Assembly: GCF_011046975.1 (NCBI RefSeq)
Contig: NZ_CP049254.1
Location: 1 to 45,606, forward strand
Direction: 5' to 3'
Length of the DNA: 45,606 nt
From: Microbacterium amylolyticum
GTDB taxonomy: Bacteria; Actinomycetota; Actinomycetes; Actinomycetales; Microbacteriaceae
Part shown: positions 1,617 to 19,881 of the stretch, piece by piece
Layout of the letters: each line of letters starts with the position of its first letter
Numbering within the stretch: the stretch's first letter is position 1
Program-made: the position numbers and the translations under genes
The notes under the pieces: generated by a model
The model's database searches: none
The model's input: only the letters and a program-made list of their open reading frames with translations
What the model was told of the DNA's origin: nothing

Positions 1617-1887
1617 AAGGCCCAGCGTAGCGGGCCTCCACTCAAAGTGCCTGCGTGCATCACCTTCATTTCTTCGTCGGAGGTGCGATAGCCTGACGGT
1701 GTCTTGTTCGCGTAGCGGCTCAACGTGAGTTGCTGGGTGGGAGGACCGGAGTCTGGTTTGAGGTCTGTGGGTCGGCTCGGTGGATCGAAGTTTCTTCGAT
1801 CCATGGGGTCAGTGGCGATCAGCTCTGTGAGTCGATGCAGTCTCGATATGGGGCTCGTTGAGAAGGTCAAGATGAGGGGATTGGCGA
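1617..1887. other. Divergent intergenic region, candidate oriT
   Basis: No convincing gene lies between the relaxase start and the methylase/helicase start. The region must hold divergent promoters. MobF plasmids commonly keep the nick site beside the relaxase gene, so oriT is expected here or nearby. It contains a perfect 10-bp inverted repeat (1781-1803). The short word GCGTAGCGG occurs at 1625 and 1710 (and at 1468 inside the relaxase gene). I cannot identify the nick position itself. Confidence 0.4.
1781..1803. repeat. Perfect hairpin in the oriT candidate region
   Basis: Arms TGGATCGAAG and CTTCGATCCA are separated by TTT. Relaxase-binding hairpins of this size flank nick sites in other plasmids, which is the reason for linking it to oriT. 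It could instead be an operator for either divergent gene. Confidence 0.5.
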
Positions 1888-4800
1888 GTGGCTCGTCGCA
1901 GTCGTCGGAACAGCTCAAAGTCGTTTCAGCAACCGGAGCTGGACCTGTGGGGAATGTCACCATCGGAAGCAGATACGGAAGTACGGGCGGTGCGGGAGGC
2001 TTCAGCCACCCCCACCGAGTCGGCGCTCGTAGACGGCTTGCTCGACTTCTCACTTCTTGACGAATTCGAAGGAGGAAATGATGAATCAATACGGTCAGAT
2101 GGCGATGAGTCATTGGCAGACTCACGCCCCGCAGCGATACGCGGAAATCGACAATCCAACGACGTTTTTCGAGATGCTCGGGGAACAGGCGATGGAACAG
2201 ATCACGTCGCTCGCGGCGAAGCTCGAGGGGACCGATCGGGAGACCGAGGGGTACCTCGAGAAGGTGGGCCGGCTGAACGCCGCGCGGAAGCAGGCGGAGG
2301 AGATCGTCCTGTCCGACCTGGTGTGGATCCCGGCCGAGACGACGGACGACGAGACGTTCGAGGAGTGGATGGCGGGCCAGAGCGATATCAGCAGTCCCCT
2401 TCACATTTGGGCGAGGTCGCTGGAGTCCGCGGACACTCCGGAGGCGCGCGAGGAAGCAGAGCTGCTGAGCCCGCAACAGATGTCCGAGGAGCTCGGACTG
2501 TCGGAGGAAATGACGCAGCGGATCTGGGACGCGAAGTTCCCGGAGCTGGAAGTGGAGTCGGCTCAGTCACGCGCAGAGATCACGAAGGCGCATCGGAAGT
2601 TGTGGGAGAAGCTCGGGCGGCCTCTCCCGGTGTAGCCCGGTTCCTGCCCGCCACGCAGGATGACCTCGCACCATCAGGTGCGAAAGCACGCTTCGCAGCA
2701 AACGTCGCCGCGATCCGTGTTGCCCAGCAACTCGATCGTGAGCAGCGCCTGGCCACCGCCGACGAGCAACGCACCCTCGCCCGATACGGTTCCTGGGGCG
2801 CAGTGCCTGACGTGTTCGACCCGGCGAAAGAAAGCTGGGCGCACGAACGTGCCGAGCTACAGACGTTGCTCGATGAAGCGTCCTACGACGCAGCCCAACG
2901 AACAACGATCAACGCTCACTACACCGACCCGGCATACGTGCGCGAGATCTGGTCTGCTCTTGACGCCCTCGGCTTCGACGGGGGCACAGTGCTCGAACCG
3001 GGATCCGGAGCGGGAACCTTCATCGGTCTTGCTCCTGAATCTGCCGACATGATCGGTGTCGAGCTGGACCCGACAACGGCCTCGATTGCTCGCGGCTTGT
3101 ATCCCCAAGCCGCGATCCGCACCGAATCGTTCGCGGAGACGCCCTTCCCCGATGGTCACGTCGACGCCGTTGTCGGCAACGTGCCGTTCGGAAACGTCAC
3201 TCTGCATGACCCGCGACACAATGCGGGGCGGCATTCGATGCACAACCATTTCATCATCAAGTCGCTCGCCCTCACCCGACCGGGCGGGCTGGTGGCCGTA
3301 CTCACCAGTCACTACACACTGGATGCTCAAAACCCCGCAGCGCGGCGCGAGATGAGTCAGATGGCTGATCTGGTCGGCGCCGTCCGCCTCCCCAGCGGTG
3401 CCCACCGCCGCGCTGCCGGCACAGAGGTCGTCACCGATCTGCTTGTGTTCCGTAAGCGAGAGGCCGGGGAGGTCGCTCGCGATCGCCAATGGGAAACCAC
3501 CACCCCGCGCGTCATCGATGGTGAGAAAGTCTCCGTCAACGCGTACTTCGATGATCATCCCGCGCACATCCTCGGAGACCTCGCCGTGCGATCAGGTGCG
3601 TACGGGTCCGCATCCTTGCATGTCGACAGCAGCGACCTGTCGAGCGTCGACGTCGTGCTTCGCACGGCCCTCGACGGCGTCGTCGATCGTGCGATCGAGC
3701 GCGGCCAGACGATGACGCAGCCCACCGCAGCGGTTGAGACCGCACGTACAGCCTTCGTCGAGACAGACACCGCCGTATGGGACGGCACCCTGCTGGCGAC
3801 CGACGCCGGCATCATGCGCGTGCGTGGCGGACGCCGCGAGCCAGTGAAGGTCGCAGCGAAGAATGTCCGCGAGCTCACGGCACTTATCAAGATCCGCGAC
3901 GCAGTGACCACGGTGCTCGATCTCGAAGCATCGTCGCCAGACGACACTGATGATCTTGTCGCCGCCCGCGAAGATCTCCGCGACCGGTACGACGCGTATG
4001 CCGCCCAGTACGGTCCCATTAACCGCTTCACTCTGTCAAAGAGCGATTCGCGGATCACGCCACAAGCGCCGCGTCTCATGCGCGGCGATCCTTTTGGCCC
4101 CGCAGTACTCGCACTTGAGCTGTTCGACGAGGAATCCCAGACAGCACGCCACGCAGCCATCCTGGGGCAGCGTGTGTTGTCTCCACGTCCTGTCCGCGAA
4201 GGTGCAGAAACACCTGCAGAAGCGATCTCGATCAGCCGCGACCGCACCGGGCGTATCGACCTCGACACGATCGCTTACCTCCTCGGCACCGACCAGGTGG
4301 ATGCTCGCGCCCAGCTGGGGACACTCGTTTTCGATGACCCCGCCCGTGACGGGCAGATCGTCGCCGCCAGTGAGTACCTTTCGGGCAACGTCCGTCTCAA
4401 GCTCGATCAGGCGCGCGCAGCCAACGAGACAGATCCCGGCCGTTACAGCACGAACATCGCCGCCCTCGAGGATGCACTCCCCGAAGCGATCCCGCAGGAC
4501 CAGATCGAAGCGCAGCTCGGAGCAGTGTGGATCGACATCCCCACGTATCAGCAGTTCTTCCGCGAGACGCTCCAAGACCGGAACCTCACGATCGAATCTC
4601 CCCTCCCCGGAAAGTGGAAGGTAACGGGCAACAAGCACACGTTGCGTGCGCGTGAGGAATGGGGCACCGACGATCGGTCGGCGATTGCGATCGCCGAAAA
4701 CCTCCTTGAACAGATGCCGATCACCGTCAAGGACCAGATCGACGTGGGCGAGACGACCAAACGTGTTATCAACGCTGAGAAGACCACCGCGGCACAGGAG

Positions 4801-7782
4801 AAGGCGCAGAAACTACAGGAGCGATTCTCCGAATGGGCGTGGGAAGACCCCGATCGTGCAGCGCGCTTGTCCGACGAGTACAACCGGCGTTTCAACTCGA
4901 TCGTTCTCCGGTCATACGACCGCGACGGCGAGTACCTCACCCTTCCGGGCCTGACGGAGACATTCAAGCCGCGAGAGCACCAGCTAGCAGCGGTTGCACG
5001 CATCGTCAGCGAGCAGGCCGTGGGGCTGTTCCATCAGGTCGGAGCAGGTAAGACGGCCGAGATGGTCATGGGCGCGATGGAGCTTAAGCGCATGGGCCTC
5101 GTGAACAAGCCCGTTGTCGTCGTCCCCAACCACATGCTCGAGCAGTTTTCGCGTGAGTGGCTGCAGATGTATCCGCAGGCGCGGCTTCTCGCCGCGTCGA
5201 GCAAGGATCTCGGCAAGGACGACCGCCGACTGTTTGTCGCCCGGGCAGCAGCCAACGACTGGGACGCGATCGTCATGACACATTCCGCGTTCCAATCCAT
5301 TCCCCTCTCGCCCGCTTTCGAGCAGCAGTACATCAGCCGCGAGGTTGAGACCATGCGCGAGGCTCTGACGCACGCACAAGACGAAGGCGGCAGTTCGTAC
5401 ACGGTCAAGGAAATTGAGAAGGCGGTCATCCGCCTCGAAGAACGACAGAAAGAACTGATCGATCTGCCCCGTGACCCCGGGCTGTCGTTTGAATCGACCG
5501 GTATCGACTACGTGATGGTCGACGAAGCGCACCTCTACAAGAACCTGGCCACCGCGTCGAACATCCCCGGCGCGGAACTCCGGGGATCTCAGAAGTCGAC
5601 CGATATGCACATGAAGCTCGACTACCTGCGCAGTCAGCACGGAGAACGTGTGGTGACCATGGCGACCGCAACGCCGATCGCCAACTCGGTCACCGAGGCA
5701 TACGTCATGCAACGCTATCTTCGGCCAGATCTCCTCGAAAACGCTGGCCTACGCGTCTTCGACCAATGGGCAGCAACGTTCGGCAAGACCGTCAGCGAAA
5801 TCGAAGTCGCACCCACCGGCGGGGAAAAATTCCGGATGAAGACGCGCTTCGCGTCGTTCCAGAACGTACCCGAGATGCTCCGCATGTGGCACGTCTCCGC
5901 CGACGTGAAAACGAGCGAGGATCTCAATCTGCCGGTGCCCGAGCTGTCGGTACGCCCCGACGGACAACGTGGACCGCTGATCCACACCGTCTCGCCAGGC
6001 CCGAAGCTGCGCGCGTACATCGACGACATCGCCCAGCGTGCGGATGCGGTGGCCAACAAGGAAGTCGCGCCCGACGTCGACAACATGCTCAAAATCAGTA
6101 GCGACGGCCGTAAAGCCGCACTCGATGTGCGCATGGTGGGCCTCGATAAGGATGTCGACACCGGCAAGATCGACGCCGCCGCAGCACAAATCCTGCACAC
6201 CTGGCAACAGACTCGCGATCGCGAGTACGTCGACACCGTCACCAAAGAGAAATCCCCCGTTCCTGGCGGGCTACAACTTGTCTTCAGTGATCTCGGTGTG
6301 CCCAACTCCGATGGCAGGTGGAACGCCTACGACGAGTTGAAGAACCTCCTCGTCGACGGCGGGATGAACCCCGACTCAATCCGGTTCATGGGTGAAGCCA
6401 AAACAGACGCCGAGAAAGCGCGCCTGTTCCAGGCCGCTCGGTCAGGTCACGTCGCCGTTCTCGTGGGATCGACCGAAAAGATGGGCGTGGGAACCAACGT
6501 TCAAGCTCGTGCCGTCGCGCTGCACCACCTCGACGCGCCCTGGCGTCCGGCCGACGTCGAGCAGCGTGACGGCCGCATCATCAGGCAGGGAAACCAGAAC
6601 GCTGAAGTCTCCATCCACCGTTACGTCGTCGAGCGATCCTTCGACGCGTACATGTGGCAAACACTCGAGCGCAAAGGCCGATTCATCAATCAGGTCATGC
6701 GAGGAAAACTCGACGTGCGTGAGATGGACGATGTGTCGTCATCGACGATCAGCGCGGCAGAAACGAAGGCGATCGCCTCCGGCAACCCGCTCCTGCTCGA
6801 GCAAGCTCAGACAAACGACGAACTCGGCAAGCTCGAACGGCTCGCCCGTTCCCATTCCCGAGCGCAGTCCAACCTCGTCCAGACGCACCAGATCAAACAG
6901 CGCCGGGCGGAAGTACTCAGCTCGCGCATCCTCGACCTGGAACACGCAAGTAACCATGTCGTCGATACCTCCGGCGAGAAGTTCCGCATCCAGATCGACG
7001 GACGGACGTACGACAAACGTGCCGACGCCGGAGCCGCACTCGCACGCACAATGATTCAAAAGGGTGTGCAGTACACGCAGCGAGATCAGGCTCTCGGCAC
7101 CATCGCCCAGATCGGTTCTCACTCCATAGAAGCGCGCACGATCGTGTCGCTCGGACAAGCCAGCGTCGAATTCGTCGTGGCAGGCCTCCCCGATGTCACC
7201 CGCCGTGTGTCACGCGAGCGGGCACTCGATGCCGGGATCGGCCTCGTTACGCAGCTGGAAAATACTCAGGCATCGATCCCGGCCGTGCTCGAACAGATGA
7301 AACAAGATCTGGCAGACACGCGACGTGACGCCGCTGCGGCGCAGTCGCGCATCGGTATCCCGTTCGAGCATTCCGATCAGCTAGAGGCGGTGCGCACGCG
7401 TGCGGCGCAGATCGCGCAGCAACTGTCGCAGCAGGCAAGCAGCGGCCCAGCCGCTGTCGAGGAAGAACCGGAGAGGTTCTCCCCCGCCGAGCTAGCGCGT
7501 GAGATGGAAGACCCGAAGTGGTGGGCCGGGCGAGCCTATTCAGAACTGAGCACACTCGTGAGCGAGTCACGCGAGAAACGAAGCGATGATCCCGACTGGC
7601 GGCGCGTGTACTCGACGCTCGAAGACGGGCTACGGAGCAGACTGACGCCTTCGGCGCTCAAGAGCGCGTTCGATATCGACACGCCCCCAGATCAGTCAGT
7701 ACCGCGTGCCGAGACGTCGTCTGCGACAGGGCCCGTCACGGGCTCGGCTCCTGATCGGAGCACCGGGCCGTCACTTTCGTAA
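1888..7782 (+). CDS. Giant methylase/SNF2-type helicase fusion of conjugative plasmids
   Basis: A 1964-residue cytoplasmic protein of the methylase-plus-DEAD/DEAH-helicase type common on conjugative elements. Its role is not established; protection of entering DNA is a usual guess. The SAM-binding motif is VLEPGSGAGTF near residue 368. The amino-methylase motif IV is NVPFGN (in place of NPPY/F) near 431. Helicase Walker A HQVGAGKTAEM is near 1049, the DEAH box (MVDEAHLY) near 1210 and motif VI RDGRIIRQGNQ near 1560. The C-terminus is helical and ends TGPVTG...STGPSLS, a tail shared with other proteins here. The start GTG 1888 follows AGGGG at 8 bases. Residues about 66-248 are read over a second gene in another frame and are Gly/Arg/Asp-rich and featureless. 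No ATG, GTG or TTG occurs in frame just after that gene, so translation must enter from upstream or by frameshift. Confidence 0.85.
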   Translation: MARRSRRNSSKSFQQPELDLWGMSPSEADTEVRAVREASATPTESALVDGLLDFSLLDEFEGGNDESIRSDGDESLADSRPAAIRGNRQSNDVFRDARGTGDGTDHVARGEARGDRSGDRGVPREGGPAERRAEAGGGDRPVRPGVDPGRDDGRRDVRGVDGGPERYQQSPSHLGEVAGVRGHSGGARGSRAAEPATDVRGARTVGGNDAADLGREVPGAGSGVGSVTRRDHEGASEVVGEARAASPGVARFLPATQDDLAPSGAKARFAANVAAIRVAQQLDREQRLATADEQRTLARYGSWGAVPDVFDPAKESWAHERAELQTLLDEASYDAAQRTTINAHYTDPAYVREIWSALDALGFDGGTVLEPGSGAGTFIGLAPESADMIGVELDPTTASIARGLYPQAAIRTESFAETPFPDGHVDAVVGNVPFGNVTLHDPRHNAGRHSMHNHFIIKSLALTRPGGLVAVLTSHYTLDAQNPAARREMSQMADLVGAVRLPSGAHRRAAGTEVVTDLLVFRKREAGEVARDRQWETTTPRVIDGEKVSVNAYFDDHPAHILGDLAVRSGAYGSASLHVDSSDLSSVDVVLRTALDGVVDRAIERGQTMTQPTAAVETARTAFVETDTAVWDGTLLATDAGIMRVRGGRREPVKVAAKNVRELTALIKIRDAVTTVLDLEASSPDDTDDLVAAREDLRDRYDAYAAQYGPINRFTLSKSDSRITPQAPRLMRGDPFGPAVLALELFDEESQTARHAAILGQRVLSPRPVREGAETPAEAISISRDRTGRIDLDTIAYLLGTDQVDARAQLGTLVFDDPARDGQIVAASEYLSGNVRLKLDQARAANETDPGRYSTNIAALEDALPEAIPQDQIEAQLGAVWIDIPTYQQFFRETLQDRNLTIESPLPGKWKVTGNKHTLRAREEWGTDDRSAIAIAENLLEQMPITVKDQIDVGETTKRVINAEKTTAAQEKAQKLQERFSEWAWEDPDRAARLSDEYNRRFNSIVLRSYDRDGEYLTLPGLTETFKPREHQLAAVARIVSEQAVGLFHQVGAGKTAEMVMGAMELKRMGLVNKPVVVVPNHMLEQFSREWLQMYPQARLLAASSKDLGKDDRRLFVARAAANDWDAIVMTHSAFQSIPLSPAFEQQYISREVETMREALTHAQDEGGSSYTVKEIEKAVIRLEERQKELIDLPRDPGLSFESTGIDYVMVDEAHLYKNLATASNIPGAELRGSQKSTDMHMKLDYLRSQHGERVVTMATATPIANSVTEAYVMQRYLRPDLLENAGLRVFDQWAATFGKTVSEIEVAPTGGEKFRMKTRFASFQNVPEMLRMWHVSADVKTSEDLNLPVPELSVRPDGQRGPLIHTVSPGPKLRAYIDDIAQRADAVANKEVAPDVDNMLKISSDGRKAALDVRMVGLDKDVDTGKIDAAAAQILHTWQQTRDREYVDTVTKEKSPVPGGLQLVFSDLGVPNSDGRWNAYDELKNLLVDGGMNPDSIRFMGEAKTDAEKARLFQAARSGHVAVLVGSTEKMGVGTNVQARAVALHHLDAPWRPADVEQRDGRIIRQGNQNAEVSIHRYVVERSFDAYMWQTLERKGRFINQVMRGKLDVREMDDVSSSTISAAETKAIASGNPLLLEQAQTNDELGKLERLARSHSRAQSNLVQTHQIKQRRAEVLSSRILDLEHASNHVVDTSGEKFRIQIDGRTYDKRADAGAALARTMIQKGVQYTQRDQALGTIAQIGSHSIEARTIVSLGQASVEFVVAGLPDVTRRVSRERALDAGIGLVTQLENTQASIPAVLEQMKQDLADTRRDAAAAQSRIGIPFEHSDQLEAVRTRAAQIAQQLSQQASSGPAAVEEEPERFSPAELAREMEDPKWWAGRAYSELSTLVSESREKRSDDPDWRRVYSTLEDGLRSRLTPSALKSAFDIDTPPDQSVPRAETSSATGPVTGSAPDRSTGPSLS
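2081..2635 (+). CDS. Small acidic protein nested out of frame in the helicase gene
   Basis: A 184-residue protein starting MNQYGQMAMSHWQ, preceded by a strong GGAGG at 2071-2075 (5 bases to ATG 2081; ATG 2078 is too close). It looks like a genuine soluble protein: acidic helical stretches such as RLNAARKQAEEIVLSD and a mixed C-terminus. I recall similar MNQYGQ-starting proteins beside relaxase/helicase genes of actinobacterial plasmids, function unknown. The whole gene lies in the -1 frame relative to the helicase gene, whose frame stays open throughout. Its ribosome-binding site is itself read as part of EFEGGN in the helicase frame. Its stop is at 2633-2635, where the helicase frame again looks like real coding sequence. 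Confidence 0.8.
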   Translation: MNQYGQMAMSHWQTHAPQRYAEIDNPTTFFEMLGEQAMEQITSLAAKLEGTDRETEGYLEKVGRLNAARKQAEEIVLSDLVWIPAETTDDETFEEWMAGQSDISSPLHIWARSLESADTPEAREEAELLSPQQMSEELGLSEEMTQRIWDAKFPELEVESAQSRAEITKAHRKLWEKLGRPLPV

Positions 7783-9516: not shown

Positions 9517-10026
9517 TTAGATGGGCTGGTCGTCGCTCGGGATCGCGACGGTTTCCCAGGGATGTGCGGGCGGGGCGGGCGTTTCTGCGCGGCTCGGCCA
9601 GGACGTCTGTGGGTGGAGCGGCATAGGGTCCGCGGCGGGTTCCGCGGGAGCAGCCTCTTTCCGTGCGGTGCCGCGCATCTTCGTTGCCTTCACCTGGTGG
9701 AAGCGGAGGCTGAAAGAAACTTCGCTCGCGTCGATCTTCTGCGATCGGCGGGTCTGCCCGGTCTCTTTATCTGGCCAGACGTCGGTCTGGACGTCGCCGG
9801 TGATGTGCACGCGATCGCCCTTGTGGCAACTCGCGGCGACGTTTTCGGCCATGTCGCCCCACACCTGTACGCGCCAGGCGTTGGGCTCAGCGTCCACCCA
9901 TTCGCCGTCAGCGTTTCGTGTGCGCCGGTTCTCGAGGACGCGGAACCGTGCCATGGCTCGCCCGTTCTGGGCGTAGCGCAGCTCGACTTCTTCAGCGAGG
10001 TTCCCCGCGAAAGTGATGGACGACAT
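9517..10026 (-). CDS. ssb: Single-stranded DNA-binding protein
   Basis: A 169-residue SSB. The N-terminal OB fold is clear: ITFAGNLAEEVELRY, RFRVLENRR and WGDMAENVAASCHKGDRVHITGDV. The Pro-rich linker ends in DDQPI, a shortened and altered form of the usual acidic DDDIPF tip that recruits partner proteins. Plasmid SSBs coat the incoming strand in a new recipient and are typical of leading regions. It sits after a 39-residue gene and before the RHH gene, all on the minus strand. Confidence 0.93.
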   Translation of the reverse strand: MSSITFAGNLAEEVELRYAQNGRAMARFRVLENRRTRNADGEWVDAEPNAWRVQVWGDMAENVAASCHKGDRVHITGDVQTDVWPDKETGQTRRSQKIDASEVSFSLRFHQVKATKMRGTARKEAAPAEPAADPMPLHPQTSWPSRAETPAPPAHPWETVAIPSDDQPI

Positions 10027-10237: not shown

Positions 10238-10489
10238 TTAAGTGAGTGCGGCGATCCGGTCGATGTGGTCGGGTCGGAATCCGGACCAGTGGTCCTGGTC
10301 GGTGCCGTCTTCAACGACACACACGGGCGCTTCGGTGTAACCGAGATCCTGAGTGACGTACTCGCGTGCGTTGGCATCGTCGCGGATGTCGATCTCGTTG
10401 AAGGGAATGCCCTTATCTGCGAGAACGCGCTTGGTCATCGTGCAGCGGATGCAGCTCGGGCCGGTGCTGTAGACGGTCACGGTATTCAT
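10238..10489 (-). CDS. nrdH: NrdH-type glutaredoxin-like redoxin
   Basis: An 83-residue thioredoxin-fold redoxin: VTVYSTGPSCIRCTMTKRVL with the CIRC active site, then FNEIDIRDD and the cis-proline region EAPVCVV. NrdH proteins give electrons to class Ib ribonucleotide reductase, but plasmid copies may serve other partners. Start ATG 10489 has GGAGGAG six bases upstream. It is directly downstream of structured element A, so its expression is probably tied to that element. No ribonucleotide reductase genes are present. Confidence 0.85.
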   Translation of the reverse strand: MNTVTVYSTGPSCIRCTMTKRVLADKGIPFNEIDIRDDANAREYVTQDLGYTEAPVCVVEDGTDQDHWSGFRPDHIDRIAALT

Positions 10490-10511
10490 GGTGTGCTCCT
10501 CCCCCGTATTT

Positions 10512-10717
10512 TTTTGGCCAAGCGGCTCGTCCACGAGCCGATGAGCGTGTGGTGCGTGTCAGGCCCTAGACGTTCCGGGAGTGGCCGACCGAGCGTGCGA
10601 GGGAGAGACGCGGCCGGGGTGTCGCCCGGGCTTGACCCACACCAGCCCCGTAGCCGTTGCTTGCAGCGGCCCAGGGCCACGCTCGTACAATCGGCCCCTT
10701 GGTCCGCTTGGCCAAAA
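10512..10717 (-). promoter_or_regulatory. Structured element A upstream of nrdH (candidate ssDNA promoter or leader RNA)
   Basis: The outer stem is a perfect 14-bp pair, 10512-10525 with 10704-10717, flanked by T- and A-runs. Inside are a small hairpin (CTCG/CGAG, 10526-10537) and an inner helix CCGAT + GAGCGTG (10538-10549) with CACGCTC (10678-10684) and ATCGG (10690-10694). The unpaired bases GTACA (10685-10689) form a bulge. On the plus strand the 3' arm carries TACAAT (10686-10691) with TTGCAG 19 bases before it. The base of the stem is 22 bases from the nrdH start. A GCCCGC/GCGGGC hairpin (10729-10743) abuts it. Elements B and C share the layout but not the sequence. Confidence 0.65.
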
Positions 10718-10743
10718 TACACTCTGCCGCCCGCGCTGCGGGC

Positions 10744-10979
10744 GTCGTTGCCCCGACCTCCGGTGCCGGGGGCCGGTGTCAGCGGTGCGGGCACCTCCGC
10801 GCCGTTTGGCGTGGTGAAGCGTCCGGGGATTCCCAAGGGGGCCGGCGCCTCCTTGGGCTGCCAGAGGCGACCGTTTGTGACGGGCTCAGTAGTAGTGGAG
10901 GTGATCACGGTAATGCTTCTACTGCCGACATCGCTGTACTTGACTGTTTATCGCGCGGTGTAGGCCTGCCCGGCGCCCA
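10744..10979. other. Gap upstream of element A, no confident gene
   Basis: A minus-strand frame opens at GTG 10908 (VITSTTTEPVTNG...) but runs straight through element A and has no ribosome-binding site. I do not call it a gene. The word TEPVTNG is reminiscent of the TGPVTG tails elsewhere. Otherwise I see nothing. Confidence 0.4.
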
Positions 10980-11546
10980 TCACGTCTCTCTCGGATCTGC
11001 CATAGCCTCAGCCGCGAACCAGGCTTGGCGTTCGATCATGCGCTCCCGGACCGCAGACCCCGCACTGAAGATCAGAGTGCCGCTGGCGATCACGCCGAGA
11101 ACCACATCGAGACCCGGCCACCCCTCCTTAGGGAGGATCGATTCCCACATGTTCCATGCCACGACGACTGCGAGAGTCACGGACCCCCCCACCCAGGCGA
11201 ACCAAACATGGTGGCGCAGCGCTGACGCATGGTCATGCGGGCCAGGACCAGACAGGCCAAATCTTACGAACAGCACCAGTGCCAAAAAGAGTGACGACGT
11301 AAGCAGCAGAGGCATGAAGGACGACTCGAAATCGATCCCGAACCACGTGGTAAACAGCGGCACCTCGCCGCTAAATTCAAAGAAGCCAAGGATCATTGAG
11401 GTGAGAACGATGCTCCCGGTCAACGTAAATACGCCGGGCTCGACCTCCCGCTCCAAGTTCTTCATGGCCGTGACTCTCTTCTTCTCTGCCTCGTCCATCG
11501 CGTCACTCGATTCACTCATGTCTTCTGCTTCTCTCAGATTAAGCAT
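10980..11546 (-). CDS. Four-helix membrane protein, unknown
   Basis: A 188-residue protein: charged N-terminus (about 40 residues), then four hydrophobic segments, around FTLTGSIVLTSMILGFF, PLLLTSSLFLALVLFV, VWFAWVGGSVTLAVVVAW and LDVVLGVIASGTLIF, and a short charged C-terminus. GGAGG five bases before ATG 11546 fixes the start. The family is not recognised. It stands alone between element A and the toxin-antitoxin pair on the minus strand. Confidence 0.8.
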   Translation of the reverse strand: MLNLREAEDMSESSDAMDEAEKKRVTAMKNLEREVEPGVFTLTGSIVLTSMILGFFEFSGEVPLFTTWFGIDFESSFMPLLLTSSLFLALVLFVRFGLSGPGPHDHASALRHHVWFAWVGGSVTLAVVVAWNMWESILPKEGWPGLDVVLGVIASGTLIFSAGSAVRERMIERQAWFAAEAMADPRET

Positions 11547-11623
11547 CCGGGCCTCCGTAACCGGGCCAGCGGCCCGGGTGGCCGTTTCCGTTCTGGATGG
11601 TCGCCTGTGGCGTTACAACTGCG

Positions 11624-11968
11624 TCATGATGCACGCAGGTACTCGGTGAGAGCATCGCGGATGACGGCGCTGGCCTTGCGGTGCTCTCGCTTGGCCCGCT
11701 CGGTTAGGGCGCGGTCGAGCTCCTCGGGCAGGCGTACCTGCCGCTTGGGTGACTCGCCCCGCGCAGCGGCTTGGCCGAGGCTGGGGCGGCCGCGACGGAT
11801 CGCTGCATCCAGCTCGGCCAGCTCATCGGCATCGAGGGCAGACTCAACAACGGCACGGCCGCGGCGCGCAGCCTCATCGCCGCTGGAGATCGTGGCGTTG
11901 GGGGAAATGTCAATGTCGCCCCGCTCGTAGCGCTCAGCGCGCTCCTCGGGCGTCTCGCGTACGGTCAT
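11624..11968 (-). CDS. Ribbon-helix-helix antitoxin
   Basis: A 114-residue protein. The acidic N-terminus (TPEERAERYERGDIDI) is likely the toxin-binding arm. The C-terminus has a ribbon-helix-helix DNA-binding domain, KRQVRLPEELDRALTERA, then SAVIRDALTEYL. The start overlaps the stop of the preceding gene by ATGA, the usual coupling in toxin-antitoxin operons. The order toxin first, antitoxin second is like BrnT/BrnA. It probably represses the shared promoter near 12270-12312. Confidence 0.8.
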   Translation of the reverse strand: MTVRETPEERAERYERGDIDISPNATISSGDEAARRGRAVVESALDADELAELDAAIRRGRPSLGQAAARGESPKRQVRLPEELDRALTERAKREHRKASAVIRDALTEYLRAS

Positions 11969-12264
11969 CGCTTCTGCTCCTTCTGTGCGGTCTCAATTGT
12001 GCGGATGATGTGCGGGCGGGCTTCCATCATGTGGAAGATCTGGATCTCGCGGGCGCGGTGATCAACTTCTGCGAAAACCTCGACCTCGGTCCCGTCGACA
12101 GCGGGTCCGATCCATCCGGCCGGGTCCGGTGTCGACGGGATTCGCGATGCCTGGAAGGGGTCCGCCGTCAGGCGGGCCCGGCTGATCGCCGCAAGGGCAT
12201 CGATCCGCTCAAAGCCGTGACGTCGAGCTGAGGCTACGAGGGTGATCTTCCACTTGCCATCCAT
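11965..12264 (-). CDS. Toxin of a type II toxin-antitoxin pair (BrnT-like arrangement)
   Basis: A 99-residue protein starting MDGKWKITLVASARRHGFERI and ending in a helix, IQIFHMMEARPHIIRTI. It has no obvious family motif I can name with certainty. The assignment as toxin rests on size, order and its overlap with a clear RHH antitoxin. An in-frame ATG at 12282 is less likely because it falls in the promoter repeats. RelE/BrnT-fold mRNA interferase is the best guess, unproved. Confidence 0.6.
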   Translation of the reverse strand: MDGKWKITLVASARRHGFERIDALAAISRARLTADPFQASRIPSTPDPAGWIGPAVDGTEVEVFAEVDHRAREIQIFHMMEARPHIIRTIETAQKEQKR

Positions 12265-12269
12265 ACACT

Positions 12270-12312
12270 TATTGTACTCCATAAAGAGGTAAATATGTAG
12301 TCCAATAATGGA
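12270..12312. promoter_or_regulatory. Promoter/operator of the toxin-antitoxin operon
   Basis: AT-rich stretch with repeated words: on the minus strand ACCTCCATTATTGG followed by ACCTCTTTATGGAG. These resemble the palindrome ahead of the ssb operon. RHH antitoxins bind such repeats to autoregulate. Confidence 0.4.
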
Positions 12313-12348
12313 GGTTTTTAGCGCCCCCAGGGGGGGCTCACGCCCGGT

Positions 12349-12486
12349 TCAGTTCCCAACAATTTCATTGGGGTGAGGTGGATCATCCCGGTAGTTGGCG
12401 ATCGCTGCGAGGAGGTCAGGGACGTCGGCGCACCCGGTGAGGTCGAGAAGGTCTCTGATCTCAGACCAGACCAGCTGTCGCGGCAT
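12349..12486 (-). CDS. 45-residue small protein
   Basis: The product starts MPRQLVWSEIRDLLDLTG and ends HPNEIVGN. It is acidic, with one amphipathic helix. GAGGAAA six bases ahead of ATG 12486 supports translation. No known family and no membrane segment. It lies divergently from the 320-residue gene. Confidence 0.55.
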   Translation of the reverse strand: MPRQLVWSEIRDLLDLTGCADVPDLLAAIANYRDDPPHPNEIVGN

Positions 12487-12620
12487 CGCTTTCCTCTCGT
12501 GAAGTTCTGCCCTCATCGTAGAGACGAAGGGCTTTCTGTTTGTCAGAAGCACGGGCAGCGCGCAAGTTCTGGTGAACGTCCCGTGACGTGCGGGATCGGA
12601 TTTGACTGGGGGAGGTAAAC

Positions 12621-13583
12621 ATGGCGGAAGACAATCGGCGGACAAGTGCGCCGCCTGACGCAGCGGTGAATGACCGTGTGGCAGAGGTTGCTTCGCGGAT
12701 GCCATTCGGCAAGACATTCATCGAGGACTATGCCGAGGGCGTGCTGCAGATTGACCTCGGTGCGACCGGTGAGGACGAAGGTCACGACCGTGCAGGAATC
12801 GATGGCACTGGCCCTGAGTACCGGTGGTGGGTGGAGACCCCTTACGGCGACCGTCAGGAATGGTCGGATCTGGGCTTTGACGCCGATCCTACGGAGGTTG
12901 CCACCTGGGTGACCCGCCAAGCGCTGACGCTCAATTCGCCAGCGGCAACGTTCAGACGTGAGATAACGCCCGTGCAGCTTGATGAGCAGCAGATTGACAC
13001 ACTGCGTCACGAGCTTCTTGACTATGCCGAATGGATCAATACGGCAGAGTTCACCGACGCGGAGGTGAGAGATGCGGCCGCTCGCGGGCATCGCCTGGAC
13101 GTCCCTATGGATATGTACACGGGGATTGCGCGGAATCTCCCCGCGGCGGGCGAGGTCCTCTATGTGAACACCGTCGATGAGCGACTGAGCGAAGTGTTTC
13201 ATCGCGCGGGATGGTCGACGGCACCGGACAGTGCCACTCCCCCGCACATGCGGTCGCTTGTAGAGACGGTCGAGAGCCAGATGCTTCGCGTTCGAGTTCT
13301 GGATGCCGCGAATGCCGCACCGGGGTTGTCCCGCACCGCGGCGACAACCGAACAGCTCGCCGGACGGATCAGCGCCCTCGAGACGCATAACAGCAGCCTC
13401 GAGGTCAGGCTCTCCGCGGCCGAGCAAGACTTGGCGCACACACGGTCAGCGCTGATCTCCGTCGCTCGCAAGCTCGATCCGGGAACCGCGCAACGAGAAC
13501 GGCAGCAGGATCCGGCTGCGACGGGGCCGGTCACGGAGGCTCCTGGAACGCCTCGAGCGGCTCCGTCAGTGGGCCCTGCTTGA
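12621..13583 (+). CDS. Unknown 320-residue protein with TGPVT tail
   Basis: A soluble, acidic protein preceded by GGAGG at five bases. The N-terminal two thirds is mixed alpha/beta with RWWVETPYGDRQEW. Residues about 245-285 form a coiled coil (ISALETHNSSLEVRLSAAEQ). The last 25 residues are Pro/Ala-rich and begin TGPVTEAPG, matching the tail of the helicase, the zeta-like toxin and Fic. It is the only plus-strand gene in an otherwise minus-strand block and ends at a strong terminator. No function can be named. The shared tail suggests it is handled like those proteins, for example exported by the conjugation apparatus. Confidence 0.8.
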   Translation: MAEDNRRTSAPPDAAVNDRVAEVASRMPFGKTFIEDYAEGVLQIDLGATGEDEGHDRAGIDGTGPEYRWWVETPYGDRQEWSDLGFDADPTEVATWVTRQALTLNSPAATFRREITPVQLDEQQIDTLRHELLDYAEWINTAEFTDAEVRDAAARGHRLDVPMDMYTGIARNLPAAGEVLYVNTVDERLSEVFHRAGWSTAPDSATPPHMRSLVETVESQMLRVRVLDAANAAPGLSRTAATTEQLAGRISALETHNSSLEVRLSAAEQDLAHTRSALISVARKLDPGTAQRERQQDPAATGPVTEAPGTPRAAPSVGPA

Positions 13584-13597
13584 TCTCAGTGCCTTAG

Positions 13598-13637
13598 AAA
13601 GTGGTCCCGCCCCGTTCTCATGGGGCGGGACCACTTT
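13598..13637. terminator. Strong bidirectional terminator
   Basis: A perfect 16-bp inverted repeat, AAAGTGGTCCCGCCCC and its complement, with an 8-base loop. T-runs are provided on both sides by the AAA/TTT ends. It lies between convergent stops at 13583 and 13642. Confidence 0.85.
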
Positions 13638-13641
13638 GGGT

Positions 13642-14052
13642 TCATGCAGCGGGGTCGTATCGCCGGAACCAGATGTGGTGATTGTCGTCGAGTCGCGATC
13701 CAAAGGTGCGGATTCCGTCAGCGATGTCGATCGTTTCGTCGGTGACAGCAGCGGCTAGCTTGCCGAGGTCGATCCGTACCCGGATGATGCTCATCGAGTG
13801 GGTAAAGCACACTTCAACCGTGTCGTCATCGTCGGCAATGTGGCCGACACCCTCGGAATTGATGACGGCCAGCTCTCCGCGGTTGACGGTCAGGAGCATC
13901 TGCGGAGTAGGGCCGTGTCGGAGTGCTTGGGCGTCGTAATCGGGGTGCGCCTGGGCGAACGTGGTGCGGCCGATGTAAAGAAGTGTGTTGGGGTCAATGA
14001 TGTGAGCGATTGCTCCGCGGGGGCGTGTACCGGTGGGGGTGTTGGTGGTCAT
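13642..14052 (-). CDS. Unknown 136-residue protein under element B
   Basis: The product starts MTTNTPTGTRPRGAIAHI. It is a small, probably beta-rich soluble protein with TLLYIGRTTFAQAHPDYDA and an acidic DDDDTVEV stretch, no membrane segment. I do not recognise it. GAGGGAG before ATG 14052 is a good ribosome site, and element B lies immediately upstream. By position it belongs to the class of small early proteins found in conjugative leading regions, where anti-defence functions are common; that is inference only. Confidence 0.75.
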   Translation of the reverse strand: MTTNTPTGTRPRGAIAHIIDPNTLLYIGRTTFAQAHPDYDAQALRHGPTPQMLLTVNRGELAVINSEGVGHIADDDDTVEVCFTHSMSIIRVRIDLGKLAAAVTDETIDIADGIRTFGSRLDDNHHIWFRRYDPAA

Positions 14053-14066
14053 GTGTCTCTCCCTCA

Positions 14067-14234
14067 TTTTTTTGCCTTGATGGCACGTAGTGCCACAGCG
14101 ACCGCGAGAGTGGAGCGCAACCCTAGCGCCGGGCATGCGTGGCCGAGCGGAGCGAGAGACGCGCGAGACAGGCGCGGCCAGGGTTGCGCGGAGCGGAGTG
14201 GTCGCTATCGTGCCGCAGGCATCACGGCAAAAAA
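14067..14234 (-). promoter_or_regulatory. Structured element B upstream of the 136-residue gene
   Basis: The outer stem is GCCTTGATG (14074-14082) with CATCACGGC (14220-14228), 8 of 9 paired, flanked by seven Ts and six As. Inside: hairpin GGCAC/GTGCC (14082-14094), AGCGACC (14097-14103) with GGTCGCT (14200-14206), and GCGCAACCC (14115-14123) with GGGTTGCGC (14181-14189). On the plus strand the 3' arm carries TTGCGC (14184-14189), 16 bases, then TATCGT (14206-14211), promoter-like. Same architecture as elements A and C; the helices are kept although the sequences differ. Confidence 0.65.
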
Positions 14235-14238
14235 TAGA

Positions 14239-14278
14239 GCCCGTAGGGCGACTGCTGCGGGGGCGCGAAGCGCCCCCG
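14239..14278 (-). terminator. Hairpins between the 214-residue gene and element B
   Basis: Two hairpins follow the upstream gene on the minus strand: a 9-bp CGGGGGCGC stem (14258-14278) and GCCC/GGGC (14239-14249). The second is followed by TCTATTTTTT, which resembles an intrinsic terminator. Equivalent hairpins abut elements A and C. Confidence 0.5.
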
Positions 14279-14400
14279 TCGATCACCGATGGGCGTTCTA
14301 TCGCGCGATCGGGAATGAGGAGTTCTCTCACACGTCGCCGCCGCCGTCCGGAGGGTGGACGGTACGGCGGCGTGGGTCCGGACACGGGTCCGGTGGTATG

Positions 14401-15045
14401 TCAGGGCTCGCTGTTGTCGGCGAGGTCGTAGCCGCCGAGAGGGCTATAACCGGGGACGTGGCGAGAGGCGAGCTTGGATGCGCGGGCGGTGCGGATGGGG
14501 GCACCGTCAACACGGAAAGCCGCGGGATAGTTCTCGTCGATCCACGCGCGACGCTGGGGTGTCATCTCTCTACTTCCCATGCCCCCTCGCAGGTTCCCCG
14601 GGAGGATCGGGAGTTCGCGCCATCCGGCGAATGCATGGTCGTGCCAGGCTTCGACGGCGATGTTCTCGTCGGAGTCGATATGGTGCCACCTGCACCTGGT
14701 GCAGATCGTCATCGTGAGCAGGCCCCCGACGCACAGGCACGCGAGCCGGTTTCCGTCCTGGTCGACGTGCCGCCAGAAGTCGCATCGGAGGTCGGCAGTG
14801 AACTGGAAGAGGTCATGCTCTGGGAGGTCCAAGCGCCCGCCCGTCGCTGAGGGGAACCACATGTGAGTGGCGCGGAGGCTGCCGCGCTTGTCGAGGTGCT
14901 CCTCCTCGCGACGGCGCAGGGCTGCCATTGCTTCGTCTGGGTCGATGTAGCCGCTCGTGAAGTGCAGTGGCAGTCCCTCCCAAACGGGCAGGGCGTCGAG
15001 GTCGGCCTCGATCATCAGCTGGTCGATTGCGGTCATGAGGTCCAT
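14401..15045 (-). CDS. DUF6349-like protein under element C
   Basis: A 214-residue soluble protein. CTRCRWHHI may be half of a metal site. The AVEAWHDHAFAGWRELP block and the ending RHVPGYSPLGGYDL match what I recall of DUF6349, an uncharacterised family of actinobacterial plasmids and phages. GAGGGAGAG lies upstream of ATG 15045. Structured element C precedes it. After its stop, the same frame continues TTGPVSGP, like the TGPVTG tails of other genes here; this may be chance or a lost tail. Function unknown. Confidence 0.7.
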   Translation of the reverse strand: MDLMTAIDQLMIEADLDALPVWEGLPLHFTSGYIDPDEAMAALRRREEEHLDKRGSLRATHMWFPSATGGRLDLPEHDLFQFTADLRCDFWRHVDQDGNRLACLCVGGLLTMTICTRCRWHHIDSDENIAVEAWHDHAFAGWRELPILPGNLRGGMGSREMTPQRRAWIDENYPAAFRVDGAPIRTARASKLASRHVPGYSPLGGYDLADNSEP

Positions 15046-15068
15046 GTGGCTGATCTCTCCCTCTCTTC

Positions 15069-15226
15069 TTTTGCCGTTGAGGCACTGTGTGCCGATCAGG
15101 ATGAGAAGCGGGACAGCAACCCGAAGGGCGGCACCTGTGCCGGCCCAACGCGCCGCTCGCGGGCGCGGTGGGCTTGTGTTCCGCGGAGCATCCGTACAAT
15201 CGCCAAAGGCTCAACGGCTAAGAAAA
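15069..15226 (-). promoter_or_regulatory. Structured element C upstream of the DUF6349-like gene
   Basis: The outer stem is GCCGTTGAG (15073-15081) with CTCAACGGC (15210-15218), flanked by T- and A-runs. Inside: hairpin GGCAC/GTGCC (15081-15093), CGAT (15093-15096) with ATCG (15199-15202), GGATG (15099-15103) with CATCC (15189-15193), and a bulge GTACA exactly as in element A. On the plus strand TTGTGT (15174-15179), 15 bases, then TACAAT (15195-15200). The stem base is about 28 bases from the gene start. Confidence 0.65.
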
Positions 15227-15234
15227 ATCGGGGT

Positions 15235-15250
15235 GCCCGCCTTGGCGGGC
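15235..15250 (-). terminator. Hairpin abutting element C
   Basis: GCCCGCC/GGCGGGC with a 2-base loop, followed on the minus strand by ACCCCGATTTTT. It could terminate the upstream membrane-protein operon and is placed like the hairpins beside elements A and B. Confidence 0.6.
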
Positions 15251-17892: not shown

Positions 17893-18000
17893 ATGGTCAG
17901 CGATGACGACAACCAGCAGGAGACGTGGGTGCCGACAGTTCGCCGGGCTGAGGATGAGACCGAGATCTCCCAGACGCTGCGGCCTCGTCGAGATCACTGA
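17893..18000 (+). CDS. 35-residue acidic small protein upstream of the recombinase
   Basis: The product starts MVSDDDNQQETWVPTVRR and ends SQTLRPRRDH. GAGGAG seven bases upstream supports ATG 17893. The stop overlaps the recombinase start (ATGA), so it may act mainly in translational coupling. Unknown family. An in-frame ATG at 17857 lies inside the palindrome and is less likely. Confidence 0.55.
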   Translation: MVSDDDNQQETWVPTVRRAEDETEISQTLRPRRDH

Positions 18001-18584
18001 TGGATTTCGGCTACTCCCGGGTCTCGACCGTCGGGCAAGATCTCGAGGTGCAGCGCACATTCCTCCTCGGTGAGGGGATCCCCGAGGGGCGAATCTTCTT
18101 CGATCACGGATTCTCGGGGAAGACGGCTGATCGCGATGGTCTGCGGACGGTACTCGGGGTCCTTGGCGAGGGCGACAAGCTCACGGTCCCGAAGCTCGAT
18201 CGACTCGCGCGCAACGTTGAGGAGACGCTGCGCATCGTGCGCGAACTTGCAGATCGCGGTGTCGCATTCCAGTTCGGGAAGACGGTCTACGACCCTGCGG
18301 ATCCGTTCTCGAAGCTCTTCCTGACGTTCCTCGCCGCGATCGCCGAAGCGGAAGGCGGGTGGATCAGCCTCCGCACTCAGGAGGCGATGGCGCGTCCGTC
18401 AGTCCGCGCGAAACTCAAGGGCCGTCGCCCGAGCCTCACGCCGAAGCAGGACGCGGCGATCGCCCGCCACCTCGCCGACGGCGAGTTCAGCGCCATGGAG
18501 ATCGCCCAGATGTTCGGCACGTCACGTGCGAGCGTCTATCGCGCGGCAGATCGCCACCAGAAAAGAATTGAGAGGACACAATGA
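18000..18584 (+). CDS. Serine recombinase (resolvase/invertase family)
   Basis: A 194-residue small serine recombinase. The N-terminus DFGYSRVSTVGQDLEVQR contains the catalytic serine. FFDHGFSGKTADRDGL and LTVPKLDRLARNVEETL are conserved blocks of the catalytic domain. The C-terminus has a helix-turn-helix, FSAMEIAQMFGTSRASVYR. Likely roles are resolving plasmid dimers at the inverted repeat upstream, or a remnant transposon resolvase. It forms an operon with the following toxin-antitoxin genes (start of the next gene overlaps its stop), an arrangement known from stability modules of Gram-positive plasmids. Confidence 0.92.
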   Translation: MDFGYSRVSTVGQDLEVQRTFLLGEGIPEGRIFFDHGFSGKTADRDGLRTVLGVLGEGDKLTVPKLDRLARNVEETLRIVRELADRGVAFQFGKTVYDPADPFSKLFLTFLAAIAEAEGGWISLRTQEAMARPSVRAKLKGRRPSLTPKQDAAIARHLADGEFSAMEIAQMFGTSRASVYRAADRHQKRIERTQ

Positions 18585-18850
18585 CAGAGAGTCTTCCTTC
18601 CAGCAAGGGTCAGCGTTTGTACGACTACGACCCGATGATCTATGACCTCCTTCGGGAGGCAGCGAACGTCCTGCGCGGTGAGTACATCGGCTTGGCGAAC
18701 GAGTCGGCGGAGCCGGAGCGGTCGCGCTTTCTTAAAGCTGAGCGAGCGGTGTCTCGCGAGGTGGATGCGGTTGATAGCTATGACCGGGCGGCGGTCGAGT
18801 CATTGACCGCGGAGTTCCGCGGCCGCACCAGTGAGCTGCGGTCGATCTAG
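18581..18850 (+). CDS. Epsilon-like antitoxin
   Basis: An 89-residue acidic helical protein, starting MTESLPSSKGQRLYDYD. GAGAGG lies upstream, the start overlaps the recombinase stop and the stop overlaps the start of the zeta-like toxin. Assignment as antitoxin is from position and size: epsilon proteins block the nucleotide pocket of zeta. Confidence 0.7.
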   Translation: MTESLPSSKGQRLYDYDPMIYDLLREAANVLRGEYIGLANESAEPERSRFLKAERAVSREVDAVDSYDRAAVESLTAEFRGRTSELRSI

Positions 18851-19881
18851 TGGCGTGGCGTAGCAACCTGGACCAGGCTGAGCTTCGGGCGCTGTTTGAA
18901 GCCCAGGTGCGGCCGAGTCTGGATGCCGCATCGTCGCCGACGCGTGAGCGTCCGCTCTTCGTGATCATTGGGGCGCAACCTGGTGCCGGCAAATCTCGAT
19001 CGATCGAAGCGGTGCGGCGCGAGCATCCGGATGTGGTGCCCGTGATTGGGGATGATCTGCGTCCATATCATCCGGATTTTCGGGCGCTGATGCGCTCGAA
19101 TCCGCTGGCGATGCCGGCAGTCACTCAGCAGGCTTCCGGGGCGTGGGTCGGGATGTCAGCTGCGCATTTGCGCGAGCGGCGTCAGAGTGTGTTGCTCGAG
19201 ACGACGATGCGGCAGCCGTCAGTGGTCGTCGCGACCGTGCGCGAGTTTCGTGCGGCAGGGTACGACGTGGAGGTGCGCGGACTTGCCGTGCCGGCTGAGG
19301 TGTCGCGACTCGCGACGGTAACGCGATGTTTGACGGACGAGAAGGAGCGGGGGCGCTGGGCTCCCTCGACGTTTCACGACGCTGCGTATGAGGCCATGCC
19401 GGGCACTCTAGAGGCCGTGATCGCCAGCGGAAATGTCGATCGTGCCGTTGTGCAGAAGCGTTCCGGTCAGGTGTTGTTGGACCGGCGTGTGACACCGGAG
19501 GCTGCCGAACGGTTGGGAGCAGAAGCACGTTCGGCCGTGGAGGACGGGCGAGACGTTGCTACGTTGACGCGGGAGGACGGGCGCGCCTGGGTGCACGAGT
19601 ATGTTCGCGCGTCGACCATTATGGCGTCCGGTCAGCAGCCTGAAGATCCAGGGATGCTGCGCACGATGATTGCTCTTGCGAACGGTCCTGCTCGCGCCTT
19701 GATTCGAGCGACGCACGAACAAGGCACCGAGGAACAGGCTGCCGCGCTCGAGCATGTTCTGGCCGGGGCCGCACGGTTGACGCCGTCCTCACAACACGGA
19801 CGTCGTGCTGCAAGCCCCGATACGGGCCCCGTCACGGGACAGACTCCTGATGGCCCGTCTGCGGGCCCGGTGCTTCGATAG
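18850..19881 (+). CDS. Zeta-like toxin kinase with TGPVT tail
   Basis: A 343-residue protein of the zeta/PezT family, which phosphorylates UDP-N-acetylglucosamine and blocks wall synthesis. Walker A GAQPGAGKS is at 41-49 (K48), then VVPVIGDDLRPYHPDF, the substrate Asp region, and LLETTMRQP. Length beyond the kinase core is about 80 residues and ends in the tail TGPVTGQTPDGPSAGPVLR. The last 32 codons and stop are part of an exact 100-bp repeat found again at 21785. GTG 18850 shares a base with the antitoxin stop. Could be a plasmid-addiction toxin, or cargo delivered to recipients, as the shared tail hints. Confidence 0.85.
   Translation: MAWRSNLDQAELRALFEAQVRPSLDAASSPTRERPLFVIIGAQPGAGKSRSIEAVRREHPDVVPVIGDDLRPYHPDFRALMRSNPLAMPAVTQQASGAWVGMSAAHLRERRQSVLLETTMRQPSVVVATVREFRAAGYDVEVRGLAVPAEVSRLATVTRCLTDEKERGRWAPSTFHDAAYEAMPGTLEAVIASGNVDRAVVQKRSGQVLLDRRVTPEAAERLGAEARSAVEDGRDVATLTREDGRAWVHEYVRASTIMASGQQPEDPGMLRTMIALANGPARALIRATHEQGTEEQAAALEHVLAGAARLTPSSQHGRRAASPDTGPVTGQTPDGPSAGPVLR

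Follow-up and report, generated by a model that had tools for sequence, protein, structure and literature searches.

The window analysed here, the whole 45,606 bp of contig C2 in the two-contig, 2.59 Mb genome of Microbacterium amylolyticum, is a plasmid contig that encodes a MOBF relaxase (TrwC plus helicase) and a coupling protein of the TraG/VirD4 family. The relaxase gene runs across the contig ends on the minus strand. To the right of its start, the genes for a plasmid single-stranded DNA-binding protein (SSB), an NrdH-like glutaredoxin, a ribbon-helix-helix protein, a 136-residue protein and a DUF6349 protein all lie on the minus strand, the region's other genes being on the plus strand. 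Three structured elements, here called A, B and C, stand upstream of the nrdH, 136-residue and DUF6349 genes, respectively (Table 1). From their fold, strand and surroundings these elements are probably single-stranded DNA (ssDNA) promoters of a zygotic (leading-region) regulon, and the genes downstream of them point back toward the presumed origin of transfer (oriT).

Table 1. Positions of the three elements, the transfer genes and the neighbouring genes in the window.
Feature	Position	Strand	Remarks
MOBF relaxase gene, 5′ part, TrwC domain	3-1616	−	read from 1616 to 3; contig opened within gene
Candidate oriT/nic region	1655-1690	+	short inverted repeat, then GAGGTGCGA at 1680-1688; resembles GAGGTGTGA conserved upstream of related MOBF relaxases; presumed nicking region
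Plasmid SSB gene	9517-10026	−	next same-strand gene called after nrdH
nrdH-like glutaredoxin gene	10238-10489	−	first gene after element A
Element A	10510-10719	+	outer stem, 5′ hairpin 10523-10540, inner helix
GC hairpin abutting A	10728-10744	+	
Ribbon-helix-helix gene	11624-11968	−	weakly RelB-like
Gene for 136-aa protein	13642-14052	−	downstream of element B; no family matched
Element B	14067-14235	+	T7/A6 runs; GNA-loop hairpin 14081-14095
GC hairpin abutting B	14258-14278	+	GAA loop
DUF6349 gene	14401-15045	−	downstream of element C; PF19876, E 6.8e-29
Element C	15066-15225	+	T4/A5 runs; hairpin 15081-15093
GC hairpin abutting C	15235-15250	+	
Type IV coupling protein gene, TraG/VirD4 family	40566-42428	+	
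Relaxase gene, 3′ part, AAA_30 helicase	43479-45605	−	continues from 45605 to 43479

A first-pass annotation of this DNA had described the three elements as sharing T- and A-runs, hairpins, promoter-like hexamers and abutting GC hairpins, and all of these were reproduced together with their coordinates. The same holds for the TTGnnn and TAnnnT hexamers on the 3′ arms, which resemble −35 and −10 boxes and are spaced by 19 nt in A (TTGCAG, 10661-10666; TACAAT, 10686-10691), 16 nt in B (TTGCGC, 14184-14189; TATCGT, 14206-14211) and 15 nt in C (TTGTGT, 15174-15179; TACAAT, 15195-15200). The outer stem of A is GGCCAAGCGG/CCGCTTGGCC, inside T7/A4 runs, and the 10-mer CGTACAATCG occupies the same structural place in A (10684) and C (15193). 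The downstream genes had been named correctly as nrdH, a 136-residue protein without a family and a DUF6349 member. The gap between stem base and start codon, given as 22-28 nt, had to be revised to about 20-22 nt (A), 14 nt (B) and 20-23 nt (C), depending on where the base is placed. Folding z-scores for A, B and C, from 20 dinucleotide shuffles each, were −3.4, −6.3 and −4.6 on the plus strand and −4.7, −4.5 and −4.3 on the minus strand. An Rfam scan of the window gave no match above the gathering score.

A stem scan, together with short blastn hits to B and C and hits to nrdH, located the same architecture on plasmids of Leifsonia, Mycetocola, Rathayibacter, Curtobacterium, Cryobacterium, Miniimonas, Amnibacterium, Agreia and Microbacterium. 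The elements measure about 145-220 nt, and up to five copies occur on one plasmid (L011). Blastn with element A found no plasmid match, and with B and C it found just short pieces in other plasmids, including three Burkholderia matches to the middle of B and one Streptomyces match to C. A covariance model built from 14 sequences (B, C and 12 relatives) scored B at 112.9 bits (E 1.3e-26) and C at 98.4 bits (E 5.8e-23), both being in the training set. Matches to the model occurred in 45 of 299 genomes of the window's family and in 17 of 347 genomes of its order, named Micrococcales in this analysis, the window's own genome being counted in each case; 15 of the 17 lie outside the family, in eight other family groups. 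The phylum-wide search matched 1 of 296 genomes, solely the window's own. Searches over 40 genomes apply stricter filters, which lose weak matches.

Two different sets of 97 recur below. The 97 unique elements are what is left of 122 matches after removal of duplicate loci and of hits to the opposite strand of the same place, with three rows added (window A, and L011 at 12681 and at 16026). These three rows stand outside alignment A2, hence the 94 elements in the wobble counts. The set leaves out one L025 match and the order-level matches; near-identical elements are kept and fall into 73 clusters, of which 70 representatives enter the wobble counts by cluster. The 97 genome matches, used for the relaxase and contig analysis, consist of 77 family-level and 20 new order-level matches and exclude window A. 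The covariance-model search proposed with the first-pass annotation gave matches mostly on small contigs: 78 genome matches are on contigs of at most 641 kb (a size class that can include chromosome fragments), and the other 19 are on contigs longer than 900 kb. Of the 97, 51 have a relaxase gene no more than 30 kb away.

Fold conservation, strand bias, the promoter-like motif, gene adjacency and the strand relative to the relaxase were computed over these sets. With regard to the fold, all 29 modelled pairs show double changes, the covariation score being 0.359 against 0.127 in shuffles, and none of 500 shuffles reached the observed value. Pairing was found in 89.8% of cells over 109 distinct rows of the model-fitted alignment and in 33-47% in slid controls. 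These figures should be interpreted with some caution, since an alignment fitted to the model, with rows that include opposite-strand matches, leans toward structure. The outer-stem pairs change freely (e.g. GC 51, TA 29; TA 46, GC 21, CG 12), and the suggestion that paired positions change together is borne out across homologues.

The strand that folds was read from wobble pairs and loops. Counted on the element strand, the 94 elements contain 141 G·T and 35 A·C pairs, distributed as 49/15 in the outer stem, 26/13 in the 5′ hairpin and 63/3 in the −35 helix; the 70 cluster representatives give 33/11, 18/7 and 49/2 for these helices and 3/4 for the GC hairpin. Moreover, cGNAg triloop hairpins with a stem of at least 3 bp number 189 on the element strand of the 97 elements and 2 on the complement, and in 73 of the 189 the complement would not form a cUNCGg RNA tetraloop. 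GNA triloops with G-C stems are extraordinarily stable as DNA mini-hairpins, according to excerpts of work by Hirao and co-workers (PMC4686876). In that work, as far as the excerpts go, the loop is a chemical motif, whereas here it is a recurrent part of what would be a natural regulatory element.

Outside the elements, GNA hairpins are evenly divided between strands in the gene-side flank (14 vs 13), and the 300-nt flank on the non-gene side is biased as well (104 vs 21), mostly through one hairpin less than 50 nt from the element. As a side observation, many elements are followed by an extra GC hairpin with a GNA loop, 72 hairpins of at least 4 bp being counted within 50 nt past the 3′ end over 97 flanks; among the hairpins abutting A, B and C the GNA loop occurs in B's alone. 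Since GNA hairpins fill the flank too, and GC hairpins are common between genes here, the elements might be taken for REP-like or mobile palindromes, or for ordinary terminators, located between genes by chance. This we consider hardly credible, because the order of stem, hairpin, −35, −10 and T/A runs recurs, the changes are compensatory and the gene adjacency is one-sided; the many gene-distant copies in random orientation that such palindromes would leave were not seen among the matches examined.

Gene adjacency is marked. A start codon with a Shine-Dalgarno sequence and coding bias lies less than 100 nt from the stem base in 79 of the 97 elements and on the other side in 4. Among the 96 first genes scanned, 17 encode an ArdC N-terminal domain, 16 a glutaredoxin, 12 DUF3846 and 6 ParB_N, with DprA, DUF6349 and DUF3560 found twice each; judged by these domains, the first genes are establishment-like. 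A strong model match at L012:9193-9412 (minus strand, 143.6 bits) was observed without a clear gene at its base, and is perhaps an orphan left by rearrangement.

The promoter-like motif is confined to one arm and one strand. TTGnnn-N14-19-TAnnnT occurs in the last 110 nt of 52 of 97 elements and in the first 110 nt, the 5′ arm, of none; on the reverse complement the corresponding counts are 0 and 5, and mononucleotide shuffles gave a mean of 0.69 and a maximum of 4. The spacing is 16 in 42 of the 52 motif-bearing elements, and in 48 of them the −10 box ends 23-25 nt from the element end. Over the 52 elements, pairing within the −10 box is weakest at the −11 A, whose mean paired probability is 0.23. 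On duplex DNA the motif would face away from the downstream genes. The earlier proposal that it is directed at the stem base and the gene holds as geometry on the strand that we infer to be transferred.

Two lines of evidence bear on which strand that is. First, the element strand is opposite to that of the nearest relaxase gene, among the PF03432 and PF08751 families covered by the search, in 51 of 51 genome matches with a relaxase within 30 kb (33 of 33 contigs), in 62 of 63 within 100 kb and in 63 of 66 with no distance limit. Of the 51, 43 lie on the 5′ side of the relaxase gene, circularity not being assumed. The chance of opposite strands per contig exceeds one half, since plasmid genes are unevenly oriented (by a hand count of gene tables, the relaxase strand carries 24 of the 37 L011 genes and 34 of the 54 L013 genes), but the pattern is still very unlikely to arise by chance. 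Six annotated plasmids (L009, L010, L011, L012, L013 and L014) agree with it; L011 and L013 had already been counted as contigs, L012 resembles one that had, and in L010 just the adjacent MobC is named.

Secondly, motifs resembling nic sites lie upstream of the relaxase genes. For MOBF relaxases, GAGGTG[TC]GA was found in 11 of 22 cases when the element strand was read and in 0 of 22 on the opposite strand, after a short repeat in most; its place in the window is 1680-1688. As this motif was picked from the element-strand orientation, the independent part is its likeness to plasmid F, where GTGGGGTGTGG/GTGGGGTGTGGTG, the latter of which we take to be F's nic, lies on the strand that templates the leading genes. 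For MOBP relaxases, AGCTTGCT was present upstream in element-strand orientation, the orientation that was counted, in 18 of 23, with an inverted repeat before it in the rows shown, and the RP4-type nic motif ATCCTG[CT] occurred in 2 of 23 on the element strand and 0 of 23 on the other, a result regarded as uninformative. A candidate oriT of actinobacterial MOBP plasmids was noticed in this connection, made up of a CCAGCGCAGCGA block (18 of 23) followed by the inverted repeat and AGCTTGCT (e.g. L011:6105-6220 and L009:5314-5430). Judging from the relaxase-strand pattern and the nic-like motifs, it is most likely the element strand that is transferred. The family represented by A, B and C lies, as read from the sequence, in the leading region, its genes pointing to a presumed oriT.

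Several results weigh against the elements being ssDNA promoters. Element A, which is outside the training set, scores 15.9 bits (E 0.039), close to a chance match of 14.5 bits in plasmid F with the same model, so that A is a member by geometry and not by a clear model match; its complement also folds more stably (difference +3.9 kcal/mol). The GC hairpin has 3 G·T and 4 A·C pairs in the 94 elements. In 94 of 97 elements it is the element strand that folds with the lower energy, but the bias is mostly base composition (mean difference −6.4 vs −4.3 in shuffles, with 74 of 97 beyond their own shuffles), and overall folding energy was for that reason rejected as a strand test. The strict motif is missing in 45 of the 97 elements; in two subtypes (CTACGATGACCGG and AATAGGTTGA) a TAnnnT box is kept with no clear TTG, and some elements have no TA either. 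The strict TTG/TAnnnT pattern also finds no promoter in F's own Frpo regions, and as it misses these it is not a general test for such promoters. Of the 97 genome matches, 46 lack a PF03432 or PF08751 relaxase within 30 kb, and 3 of 66 are on the same strand as the relaxase when distance is not limited. Within 100 kb, G297:C2 is the sole contig with element and nearest relaxase on the same strand; its element (19527-19672) appears truncated, and no clear gene adjoins the stem base. The looser GGTGTG[AG], sought upstream of MOBF relaxases, occurs in 15 of 22 cases on the element strand and in 4 of 22 on the opposite one. Finally, 116 of the 189 GNA hairpins would read cUNCGg on the opposite strand, cUNCGg being a stable RNA tetraloop.

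This last count would suit 5′ leader RNAs, acting as attenuators or riboregulators and made from a conventional double-strand promoter further upstream, as the tetraloops would then lie in the gene-sense RNA. The elements are directly upstream of start codons, both strands can fold (mean z −3.7 for the element strand and −3.1 for the complement), and a structured region, EGeRS1, is found upstream of establishment genes on the Bacillus plasmid pLS20. However, gene-sense TTG-TAnnnT promoters were found in the 150 nt upstream of the element in 3 of 97 cases, against a shuffled mean of 1.76 (maximum 7). Leader RNAs would also leave unexplained the −35/−10 boxes on the antisense strand, the excess of G·T over A·C on the element strand, the GNA loops at 189 vs 2 and the single strand shared by all 51 elements near a relaxase. 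We therefore regard them as improbable.

A role in priming is less easily set apart from promoter function. The elements could be single-strand initiation sites (ssi/sso), at which RNA polymerase or primase primes the second strand, instead of or besides acting as promoters. Masai and Arai (1997), by the title of that paper, tie Frpo to transcription and primer RNA synthesis. An apical block, CGAWRTRAG, is not obviously needed for a promoter; it was observed on the element strand in 54 of 97 elements (e.g. L011:17217-17413), on the complement in 0 of 97 and in 2 of 194 flanks, and is perhaps a protein or primer site. Several copies per plasmid, most of them with their own gene and ribosome-binding site, nevertheless exceed what priming needs, and we consider this explanation rather unlikely, though less so than leader RNAs.

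The reading of the elements as ssDNA promoters has precedents. Frpo1 and Frpo2 of plasmid F are single-stranded promoters that drive early and transient expression of leading genes (excerpts of PMC9849209), and they and the single-stranded promoters of ColIb-P9 are known here through excerpts of PMC9849209 and PMC8708921. Like these, the family presents a long stem-loop on the strand that most likely is transferred; it lies in the leading region, upstream of ssb or establishment genes that point to oriT, and has −35 and −10 boxes on the fold; the long stem taken as Frpo2 in F ends 46 nt from ssb. The original work on Frpo1, Frpo2 and the ColIb-P9 promoters is reportedly that of Masai and Arai in 1997, Bates in 1999 and Nasim in 2004. 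Unlike Frpo, of about 320 nt, the family elements are short, have GNA mini-hairpins and a T/A-run base, occur in as many as five copies on a plasmid, and belong to Micrococcales hosts with MOBF and MOBP relaxases. The covariance model gave no match at the Frpo regions of F, just chance pieces elsewhere, and blastn of A, B and C against plasmids returned no enterobacterial plasmid. Of the likeness to Frpo drawn in the first-pass annotation, the working resemblance in geometry and strand is supported and identity with Frpo is unsupported, no sequence kinship having been detected. Another comparison is offered by the promoters of the phage N4 virion RNA polymerase, in which ssDNA hairpins with small purine-rich loops recruit the polymerase. 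N4 relies on a polymerase of its own and a single short hairpin, whereas the boxes here resemble those of a housekeeping sigma factor and the fold is composite.

In a Gram-positive host, EGeRS1 of pLS20 is a GC-rich structured region of 400-600 bp, with no recognisable promoter, repeated upstream of establishment genes that include ardC (excerpts of PMC8708921). The family resembles it, as far as those excerpts describe it, in that a structured region recurs upstream of such genes. The pLS20 study, in the same excerpts, weighed and rejected single-stranded promoters, mainly since the strand transferred in that system is not the template; in the present family the presumed transferred strand is. 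Two surveys of leading regions looked mainly by similarity to Frpo sequences (excerpts of PMC11541004 and PMC12826799), one of them finding Frpo-like promoters by blastn and, in a few islands, candidates from their boxes and fold. The main text of both, in the form available, contains no word beginning with Actino, and surveys of this kind would probably miss the present family. Among the matches listed from the open-access literature, as excerpted, there was no description of ssDNA promoters in Actinomycetota.

Taken as ssDNA promoters, the elements would act as follows, the nick strand, polymerase binding, start site and timing being what we infer beyond the computed results. During conjugation the plus strand would enter the recipient 5′ end first, from an oriT near 1.66-1.7 kb, and each element, once single-stranded, would fold into the outer stem, two mini-hairpins that face each other on the 5′ and 3′ sides, and an inner helix in which the −35 hexamer is paired while the −11 A of the −10 box stays largely free. 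The host's RNA polymerase, carrying the housekeeping sigma factor, would bind to the 3′ arm and initiate in the unpaired junction. It would then exit via the stem base and transcribe the plus strand leftward, reaching nrdH (followed by ssb), the 136-aa gene or the DUF6349 gene. Second-strand synthesis would remove the hairpin and leave the motif facing away from the gene, and expression would thereby stop.

Two further features of the plasmid were noted. A gene for a 1964-aa methyltransferase/SNF2-type helicase protein adjoins the presumed oriT (1888-7782, plus strand), with weak similarity to DISARM DrmD that is far below the model cut-off; it lies within the presumed leading region in an orientation that the transferred strand could not template. 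A resolvase gene, a gene for an 89-aa protein and a zeta-toxin-family gene are consecutive at 18000-19881 (plus strand), perhaps as a plasmid maintenance cassette.

In conclusion, our best reading of the sequence evidence is that the family consists of independent, multi-copy ssDNA promoters in Micrococcales. A wider proposal, which we put forward tentatively and hold to be somewhat short of an even prospect, is that conjugative plasmids of Micrococcales evolved, independently of Frpo, a DNA-only class of promoter. In these, GNA mini-hairpins would hold open the junction as a ready-made bubble, multiple copies would run a zygotic regulon (anti-restriction, redox, SSB, ParB-like), and the apical block may be a second docking site (for SSB, primase or polymerase) linking early transcription with priming of the second strand. 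So far ssDNA promoters have been worked out on enterobacterial plasmids. If our reading is true, expression from the entering strand arose more than once, and GNA mini-hairpins would represent a natural design rule for DNA. The elements would then be a strand-specific marker of the transferred strand, and with the model, leading regions and early anti-defence genes could be found on plasmids of actinobacteria independently of annotation.

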